DNA of 64,000 nt from Neokomagataea tanensis (GTDB lineage Bacteria > Pseudomonadota > Alphaproteobacteria > Acetobacterales > Acetobacteraceae). The notes beneath the pieces were generated by a model. The model had not been told where the DNA came from, made no database searches, and saw nothing but the letters and a program-made list of their open reading frames with translations. The translations under genes and the position numbers were made by a program. Positions 26,202 to 28,410 of the stretch are shown piece by piece. Position 1 is the first letter of the stretch. Each line of letters opens with the position of its first letter. The stretch spans positions 1,746,501 to 1,810,500 of the forward strand of contig NZ_CP032485.1 of the NCBI RefSeq assembly GCF_006542335.1. The letters are read 5' to 3'.

Positions 26202-27030
26202 GGCTCAGGACCTATTGATTTGATTGCGGAAATCTGATTCAGGCTCTGTGAGGAGACTGAAGATGAGCGACCTGTTTTGGCTGACGGACGAACAGATGGA
26301 GCGTCTGCGGCCGTTCTTTCCCAAGAGCCACGGCAAACCTCGCGTTGATGACCGCCGTGTGCTGAGCGGCATCATTTTTGTGAACCGCAATGGTATGCGC
26401 TGGCGTGATGCGCCCCGGGAATACGGTCCGCACAAAACGCTCTACAACCGCTGGAAACGTTGGGGTGACATGGGCATTTTCATGCGGATGATGGATGGCC
26501 TGTCTGCTGCGAAAGCCGAGCCTCAGACGATTATGATTGATGCGACATATCTCAAGGTGCACCGCACGGCTTCGAGCCTGCGGCTAAAAAAGGGGATCCA
26601 GGCCGCCTGATTGGTCGCACCAAAGGCGGTATGAATACCAAACTCCATGCGGTCACCGATCAGAACGGACGACCGCTGAGCTTTTTCATGACTGCGCGGC
26701 AGATCAGCGATTATACCGGTGCCGCTGCCCTGCTGGACAGTCTTCCTGCAGCACAATGGATGCTGGGAGATCGCGGGTATGACGCCGACTGGTTCAGGGA
26801 CGCCCTGGAAGAGAAAGGTATAAAGCCCTGCATTCCAGGACGGAAATCTCGCGGAAAACCGGTCAAATACGACAAGCGAAAATATAAACGCCGCAATCGC
26901 ATCGAGATTATGTTCGGAAGGCTCAAGGACTGGCGGCGGGTCGCAACCCGCTACGACAGATGCCCGACCGTCTTCTTCTCAGCCGTCTGCCTCGCCGCAA
27001 TCGTCATCTTCTGGCTATGAGTCCTGAGCC
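26202..27030 (+). mobile_element. IS5-family (IS427-type) insertion sequence, apparently intact
   Basis: An 829-bp element with terminal inverted repeats GGCTCAGGAC / GTCCTGAGCC. It is flanked on both sides by TA (26200-26201 and 27031-27032), the short target duplication of the IS427 group. It carries two overlapping transposase frames joined by a slippery sequence. Directly to its right the integrase remnant begins, so it may have inserted into or beside the integrase gene. Confidence 0.88.
26263..27020 (+). CDS. IS5-family transposase made by programmed -1 frameshift
   Basis: The first frame (26263-26610) gives the N-terminal domain MSDLFWLTDEQMERLRPFFP and the first catalytic Asp region (TIMIDATYLKVHRTA). 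At 26586-26592 the heptamer A AAA AAG allows a -1 slip into the second frame, which reads GDPGRLIGRTKGGMNTKLHA, then MLGDRGYDADWF (second Asp) and RNRIEIMFGRLKDWRRVATRYDR (third catalytic residue, E-x-x-F/R...K; two pieces). Joined, this is a full-length DDE transposase of ~250 residues. The two-frame layout is normal for the IS427 group and is not a sign of decay. Confidence 0.85.
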
Positions 27031-27379: not shown

Positions 27380-27396
27380 TGGTGTCCACGGAAGGA
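27380..27396 (+). repeat. Proximal attachment-site copy (3' end of tRNA-Arg)
   Basis: The last 17 nt of the tRNA-Arg(CCU) gene, from the T-arm 3' strand through CCA, identical to 21395-21411. Integration at a tRNA 3' end keeps the tRNA intact, as seen here. Confidence 0.82.
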
Positions 27397-27419
27397 TTCG
27401 AACCTTCGGCCCCAGGATT

Positions 27420-27652
27420 CATACCACTTCGGCTTTCGCCGCCGAACTGCCTGTGCAGTTCGTTTGTGGTCTGGACTGTCTCTTCACCACGGCTAATGCC
27501 AAGGTGTTGCCCGTACAGTCTCTACACCTTCTTCCTCTTATGAGAGGAAGCTTGGCTCGGGATTGGCACGACCGTTAGTGCGGTCAGAGCGTTCCCCGAA
27601 TTTGAGCAAATCCACCATGACGTTTCCGAAGCATGGCGCCCAATTCGAAACT
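27420..27652 (-). ncRNA. Self-splicing group I intron (IC3-like) in tRNA-Arg anticodon loop
   Basis: 233 nt without an ORF. P1 is a perfect 7-bp hairpin across the 5' splice site: CCU (anticodon) plus AGUU pairs with AAUUGGG, placing the conserved U-G wobble at the splice point. P2 is CGCCATG/CATGGTG. The core elements follow in order: Q-like AAATTCGGGGAACG, P5 GACCG/CGGTC, R-like CAATCCCGAGCCAAGC, P6 CTTCCTCT/AGAGGAAG, P7 5' strand in GTAGAGACTGTACGG, and the J8/7-P7 3' strand in AAGAGACAGTCC. P9 is GAACTGC/GCAGTTC, then a CGGC-GAAA-GCCG hairpin, and the intron ends in the required G. Size and position match the tRNA-Arg(CCU) intron known from Agrobacterium (established knowledge). Confidence 0.95.
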
Positions 27653-27689
27653 AGGAATCCTGTGCTCTATCCTACTGAGCTACGCAGAC

Positions 27690-27996: not shown

Positions 27997-28410
27997 ATGG
28001 AGGATGCTGACTGTATGGTCCAAAACAAGCAATCAGTAGAGGACAATGTATCGTCCCCTGGACTTGACCTCGGGAGACGCATTCGACTTCTGCGCGAAAT
28101 GGCTGGACTTAGTCAATTACAGTTGGCCCAGAAGGTAGGTATTTCTCGTTCCGCTGTTGCATTTTGGGAAACGGGGCGGGCCGGTCATGTCGGCAAGCAT
28201 CTTGGCGCATTGGCAAACGTGCTTGGCGTCGAGCCTCAAGTGCTTTTGACGGGCATGGCTGCGAAGGACATTCCAGCAGTGCTTACTCCCGATGAGGATG
28301 TAATACTAAAGCTCTATCGCCAATTAGACCCGCTTATTAAGCTGCAAACTCAAAAATGGGTTGAACGCAGAGTTAAAGAAGCTAAGCAGGGCAAGTTTTC
28401 TGAAGAATGA
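27997..28410 (+). CDS. XRE-family helix-turn-helix transcriptional regulator
   Basis: A 137-residue protein. Residues ~25-85 form a Cro/C1-type HTH: LGRRIRLLREMAGLSQLQLA, QKVGISRSAVAFWETGRA and LANVLGVEPQVLL. The C-terminal ~50 residues are helical and charged, possibly for dimerisation, with no sensor or peptidase domain. A GGGAGAGCGA stretch precedes the ATG at 27997; a second ATG at 28015 is possible. It lies just outside the integrative element and is closed by a strong terminator. Confidence 0.85.
   Translation: MEDADCMVQNKQSVEDNVSSPGLDLGRRIRLLREMAGLSQLQLAQKVGISRSAVAFWETGRAGHVGKHLGALANVLGVEPQVLLTGMAAKDIPAVLTPDEDVILKLYRQLDPLIKLQTQKWVERRVKEAKQGKFSEE

Follow-up and report, generated by a model that had tools for sequence, protein, structure and literature searches.

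The 64,000-nucleotide (nt) stretch of the Neokomagataea tanensis genome analysed here (the window; NZ_CP032485.1, positions 1,746,501 to 1,810,500) contains the only tRNA-Arg(CCU) gene detected in the genome, and this gene is interrupted by a group I intron that is almost certainly intact and working. The anatomy of the intron, its conservation and its host gene are observed directly. The 310-nt precursor lies on the minus strand (27689-27380) and consists of a 37-nt tRNA 5' half (27653-27689) whose end reads ...CAGGATTCCT with the anticodon CCT last (CCU in the RNA; 27655-27653), the 233-nt intron (27420-27652), and a 40-nt 3' half (27380-27419; AATCCTG...CCA) that begins with A37 and encodes the CCA end. 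The insertion site is thus between positions 36 and 37 of the tRNA, right after the anticodon. An earlier note on this DNA had placed a 233-nt intron at this position within 27380..27689, and the exon/intron parse agrees on all of these points; the location stands, and to it we add the strand, which the note left unstated.

Stem-based parsing pairs the two halves at all seven positions of the acceptor stem and all five of the anticodon stem, and ARAGORN recognizes the joined 77-nt exons as tRNA-Arg(cct) with a complete cloverleaf in which all four stems are paired (two of the acceptor pairs are G-U), as expected from the earlier note's proposal that the halves fold once joined. The same note held that tRNA finders tend to miss such genes, and the tRNA search as run on the unspliced 64-kilobase window indeed reports a tRNA-Ala only and misses the split Arg gene.

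Assignment to the group I introns, also proposed in the note together with an RF00028 search as a check, is borne out by an RF00028 match at 27658-27459 on the minus strand (50.6 bits, E-value 6.5e-10) that exceeds the gathering cut-off of 50 bits and is the sole match to this family in the genome at E-values up to 0.001. The core helices P3 to P8 are present, including the guanosine site in P7, as are the two splice-site features listed in the note, a U-G at the 5' splice site in P1 and a terminal G (27420) closing the 3' end, which reads ...GTATG. The parse demands this G, and the introns in 142 parsed precursors end in ATG, AAG, ACG or GCG. The subgroup is putatively IC3-like. The predicted fold of the precursor (-121.4 kcal/mol, z -4.39) is matched by none of 100 shuffles, and chance resemblance is ruled out by the RF00028 match, the covariation described below and this comparison with shuffles. 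An archaeal-type tRNA intron is likewise ruled out, by the length and the group I core.

Conservation of the core was counted in an alignment of Arg(CCU) introns in which 139 of 142 were kept (those over 250 nt were omitted), giving 137 distinct introns with the N. tanensis copy included. Pairs were counted against a structure drawn from this copy and compared with within-column shuffles, and a two-sided change was scored where both bases of a pair are altered in at least two sequences. Several helices are paired well beyond their shuffles. The P2 stem-loop (27613-27638), which has a GAAA tip, is paired in 946/959 cells (98.6% vs 75.7% shuffled) with two-sided changes in six of seven pairs, and its tip in 251/274 cells with two-sided changes in both pairs. 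The P5a hairpin (27570-27585) is paired in 581/659 cells (88.2% vs 55.6%), the P6a hairpin (27531-27550) in 794/886 (89.6% vs 56.1%), and P9a (27462-27443) in 790/844 (93.6% vs 65.9%), with two-sided changes in every pair of each (5/5, 8/8 and 8/8). Smaller excesses are seen for P3 (5' strand 27604-27609, 3' strand 27512-27507; 822/822 cells, 100% vs 92.3%; two-sided changes in 3/6 pairs) and P8 (27485-27506; 838/1096, 76.5% vs 69.8%; 7/8 pairs), in which the N. tanensis copy has one mismatch. The P9 domain (27423-27470) comprises P9, P9a and P9b, of which P9 (27470-27466 with 27427-27423) is paired in 670/685 cells (97.8% vs 95.3%; 2/5 pairs) and P9b (27441-27430), closed by a GAAA loop, in all 548 (100% vs 94.3%; 3/4 pairs).

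The remaining helices are conserved in a different manner. P7 (5' strand 27516-27520, 3' strand 27478-27474), which we take to be the guanosine-binding helix, is paired in 685/685 cells and is identical in all 137 introns (AGACTG / CAGTCC), without two-sided changes. P4 (5' strand 27595-27600, 3' strand 27561-27556) is paired in 769/822 cells (93.6%) and P6 (27555-27554 with 27528-27527) in 272/274 (99.3%), both without two-sided changes; P5 is paired in 100% of cells, also without any. P1, P4, P6, P7 and P10 equal their own shuffles because their alignment columns hardly vary. J8/7 (27479-27484) reads AAGGGA in 86 and AAGAGA in 51 of the 137 introns.

The internal guide 5'-AUUGGG-3' (27639-27644) follows the short opening stretch of the intron in all 152 parsed precursors, and is ATTGGG in 143 and ACTGGG in nine, so that A(U/C)UGGG is present in 152/152. 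Its GGG pairs with the anticodon CCU to form P1, with the U-G at the splice site, and this part of the earlier description of the guide stands; its extent was drawn too short, since the adjacent AUU complements the AAU with which the 3' exon opens, a candidate P10 pairing that is possible in 143 precursors. The six-base guide can therefore hold both exons in turn, first in P1 and then in P10.

How the intron would splice, including its P10 step, and how AGG would be decoded can be sketched from relatives and general knowledge. The precursor RNA would fold such that the guide GGG pairs with the anticodon CCU, fixing the 5' splice site, and a free guanosine held in P7 would attack after U36. The freed 5' exon would then attack after the terminal G of the intron, aided by pairing of the guide AUU with the exon AAU, and the joined RNA would be a mature tRNA-Arg reading AGG. 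By analogy with its relatives, the N. tanensis intron should be self-splicing.

Several observations weigh against an intact, working intron. The Rfam score exceeds its cut-off by merely 0.6 bits. P1 and P10 are nearly invariant among the Arg introns (411/411 and 405/411 exon-guide cells are paired, respectively, with no two-sided changes in either), and because both hardly vary they offer no covariation evidence; the intronic extension of P1 is no better than shuffles (74.9 vs 74.4%). In addition, the minimum-energy fold of the precursor pairs CAGGAUUC with GAAUCCUG in an extended exon-exon stem across the intron, and P1 is not formed; the energy model lacks pseudoknots, and P3 and P7 cannot both be drawn in it. 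This preference for a competing exon pairing would suit an RNA that is a group I intron by structure and yet needs a protein helper in order to splice in the cell. We consider such a dependence doubtful, given that P3, P6 and P7 are almost fully kept and that the Bartonella homologue is reported (PMC7717549) to self-splice in vitro. A helper requirement refines a working intron in tRNA-Arg(CCU) and does not exclude it.

A further point against the working intron concerns the supply of tRNAs. A tRNA-Arg(UCU) is present in the genome and might read AGG by wobble, so that tRNA-Arg(CCU) might be dispensable. AGG is in use, in favour of a working gene, and is rare (44 of 15,219 codons, 2.9 per 1000, in 32 long reading frames of the window). 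The presence of tRNA-Arg(UCU) and the rarity of AGG would fit a dead remnant with AGG read by another tRNA such as tRNA-Arg(UCU), a reading that we regard as very improbable because the tRNA stems are all paired, CCA is encoded, the catalytic core is kept, and the intron is present in all 26 genomes of the genus that were searched. Nor is this a dead copy beside an intact gene. The earlier note had raised a second tRNA-Arg(CCU) as something to look for, and none was found among 51 tRNA matches genome-wide (50 outside the window and one inside, all with other anticodons), nor did the uninterrupted CCU junction pattern have any match in the genome at up to three mismatches. The pattern search is the stronger of the two because the tRNA list is incomplete, tRNA-Ile(GAU) and tRNA-Ala(UGC) being absent from it; the genes for these two generally sit in rRNA operons.

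A working intron in tRNA-Arg(CCU) is also in keeping with its distribution. Each of the 26 genomes searched in the genus, N. tanensis included, has an RF00028 match that is resolved by parsing into a split Arg(CCU) gene. Among 200 genomes of the family there are 49 with a match (51 matches), and the hosts are tRNA-Arg(CCU) in 38 cases, Leu in five, Thr in two, and Asn, Lys and Arg(UCU) in one each, with three unassigned; across the class, 34 of 387 genomes have a match. An uninterrupted Arg(CCU) junction occurs in 60 of 200 family genomes, a set that by its handles is identical to the first. Six of these 60 also have an intron match (G063, G106, G161, G181, G190 and G229), always in a tRNA other than Arg(CCU), such that intact and split Arg(CCU) genes were seen together in none of the 200. 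Neither an intron match nor an intact junction was found in 97 of them, of which stricter Infernal filters and the near-exact pattern may have missed some. We also note that the uninterrupted tRNA-Arg(CCU) pattern matches at two or three places in each of three family genomes (G181, G140 and G139); in G181 one of these matches has three mismatches.

The split Arg(CCU) pattern was found in 95 stretches from named genomes by a search in which the exon part is preset (the CCU exon junction is required) and the intron part is free. The names of the 80 that were listed are all alphaproteobacterial and include Rhizobium, Agrobacterium, Bartonella, Azospirillum, Acetobacter, Komagataeibacter and Gluconacetobacter. 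On re-parsing, 92 of the 95 have the intron at the identical site; two of the three that misfit the expression display the same exons, and the third (L095) displayed nothing. In a tree of 105 thinned rows the 26 introns of the genus form one group with moderate support (85/89), within which the N. tanensis copy groups with those of G001, G009 and G022 (99/100). The genus group is nested in a group of Arg(CCU) introns (100/99) with 76 rows, 75 of them Arg and one a long-branch Leu. By both its insertion at 36/37 and its grouping, the N. tanensis copy thus belongs with the alphaproteobacterial tRNA-Arg(CCU) introns, and the tree reads as vertical descent within the genus with patchy gain or loss beyond it.

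Introns of this kind are familiar from other bacteria. Alphaproteobacterial tRNA-Arg(CCU) introns were reportedly described from Agrobacterium by Reinhold-Hurek and Shub in 1992 and by Paquin and colleagues in 1999, the latter under a title that refers to their sporadic distribution. These introns are like the one described here in host tRNA, position after the anticodon and sporadic distribution, and the differences seen are in sequence detail and host species only. The small Azoarcus intron in tRNA-Ile(CAU) also lies after the anticodon, with which its guide pairs; both the host tRNA and the guide differ from those in N. tanensis. This tRNA-Ile intron is named in PMC3984707, and PMC8450103 reports fMet and Ile2 tRNAs as hosts of introns. 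For cyanobacteria, PMC5733544 claims hosts among Arg, Gly and Lys tRNAs, where the inserts measure only 22-49 nt.

PMC7717549 describes the tRNA-Arg(CCU) family as found first in Agrobacterium and later in other alphaproteobacteria, and reports that BbgpI of Bartonella bacilliformis splices in vivo and self-splices in vitro. BbgpI shares the host tRNA and CCT flanks, and its tRNA was found by tRNAscan-SE only after removal of the intron; self-splicing is established there by experiment, whereas for the N. tanensis copy it is predicted. The earlier note had thought a copy in acetic acid bacteria little described, and this view is weak: in addition to the 26 genomes of the genus and many relatives that carry it, a footnote to Table 1 of a 2015 paper (PMC4596401) marks at least five acetic acid bacteria as having one tRNA (Arg) interrupted by a group I intron homologue. 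The marked rows are Asaia bogorensis, Acetobacter pasteurianus, Gluconobacter oxydans, Gluconacetobacter diazotrophicus and one more, which judged by its reference number is Komagataeibacter; Granulibacter has no such mark. The likeness to the N. tanensis gene is described there at footnote level. The Arg(CCU) intron of acetic acid bacteria is therefore already known, and the N. tanensis copy is a sound and complete example of a family present in many related bacteria.

Related introns in other tRNAs may be less known, and among the matches listed from the open-access literature we saw no reports of Lys, Thr or Asn hosts in such bacteria. Introns after U36 occur in tRNA-Thr(GGU) in four genomes (L251, L260, L273, and L217/L274, which are one place), with GCC at the place of the guide by reading, and in one tRNA-Asn(GUU) (L198), with the guide GAC. 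tRNA-Lys introns are found at L060, L216, L239, L241 and L224; four such loci have the intron after U35 of tRNA-Lys(UUU) or (CUU) with GGAG, and one has it after U34 of tRNA-Lys(UUU). In tRNA-Leu(UAA) the intron lies after U34 at 18 loci, one of which is a plasmid copy, and the parser picks GAGU in 16. We note two further possible group I introns directly after U33 of tRNA-Leu(CAA), at L206 (where the guide pairing is 7 base pairs) and L240. At L217 (genome G073) the 5' half of tRNA-Thr(GGU) is seemingly present twice, about 140 nt apart, upstream of the intron, and two parses differ. These assignments depend on a stem-based parser that leaves 14 of 108 loci without a host and labels nine loci as His(ATG) that all match the Arg(CCU) expression and are counted as such. 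Its choice of guide is unreliable: with many Arg introns it favoured another pairing, as it did with Thr L251 and L273, and L260 was the only Thr intron to give GCC unaided.

Because short guide matches arise easily by chance, exons were swapped between hosts as a control. The intron's own exons are best or tied for 137 of 142 Arg introns (strictly best in 64), all four Thr (one) and the single Asn (one), and for three of the four Lys introns after U35 (ties only, strictly best in none) and seven of 18 Leu introns (four). The case for guide-host matching is fair in the Arg, Thr and Asn introns, and the exon swap does not bear it out for Lys or Leu. It is possible that the Arg(CCU) intron belongs to a wider set of alphaproteobacterial group I introns and that anticodon loops are a repeatedly colonised landing site with the guide re-matched for each host (GGG/CCU, GCC/GGU, GAC/GUU). 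This reading spans tRNA-Leu(UAA), Lys(UUU and CUU), Thr(GGU) and Asn(GUU), with Leu(CAA) and Arg(UCU) as less certain members; we advance it tentatively, and somewhat less readily than before because of the exon-swap outcome.

The introns of other tRNAs could instead have come from the Arg(CCU) intron by recent movement within a genome. Genome G010, of the same genus, has a second group I intron in tRNA-Lys(UUU) after U35 (L224) in addition to that in Arg(CCU), and the two share their last six bases, GGTATG. The Lys intron nonetheless groups with its counterpart from a different genus (99/96), apart from the Arg introns, and on this placement a recent Arg-to-Lys jump in G010 is rejected; recent jumps in general are improbable. 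Long branches carry the Asn row and some of the Leu, Lys and Thr rows, such that the deep order of the tree is unsure and needs to be read with care.

The plasmid copy is a tRNA-Leu(UAA) gene with an encoded CCA, split by a group I intron (L081:4925-5223, NZ_CP028312.1; also L082), and on both resistance plasmids examined it is one gene away from aac(3)-IId. It matches 1280 of 72,556 plasmid records, 1257 of them over at least 80% of the query; the collection lists no RNA genes, such that annotation of the split tRNA there cannot be judged. In the tree the plasmid intron groups with alphaproteobacterial tRNA-Leu introns (97/94), hinting at an alphaproteobacterial origin of the plasmid segment.

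Near the split tRNA-Arg gene, two adjoining frames with IS4/IS5-type transposase domains (DUF4096 and DDE_Tnp_1; 26224-27020) lie about 360 bases beyond the tRNA 3' end and probably represent a single element split between two frames; a helix-turn-helix gene is also close by, at 27997. A scan for promoters and terminators gave results at chance level, the lone terminator hit being P9a read on the opposite strand. An island attachment site was considered and rejected, the last 25 bases of the tRNA occurring once at up to three mismatches in the window, which the search covered. A homing endonuclease gene within the intron was rejected too: open runs on its own strand do not exceed about 51 codons, and no open reading frame of at least 100 amino acids overlaps the intron on either strand.

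The Arg(CCU) intron of N. tanensis mainly calls for a correction to annotation, a tRNA expected to read AGG having been missed by the tRNA search as run, and it offers a clean case of one six-base guide tied to an anticodon. Of more interest are the introns in tRNA-Thr, -Asn, -Lys and -Leu together with the plasmid copy in tRNA-Leu. If the anticodon loop is such a landing site, the decoding sequence and the splice guide would be locked together in each host tRNA. The comparative set, with its several host tRNAs, could allow tests of how these introns reach new tRNA genes.
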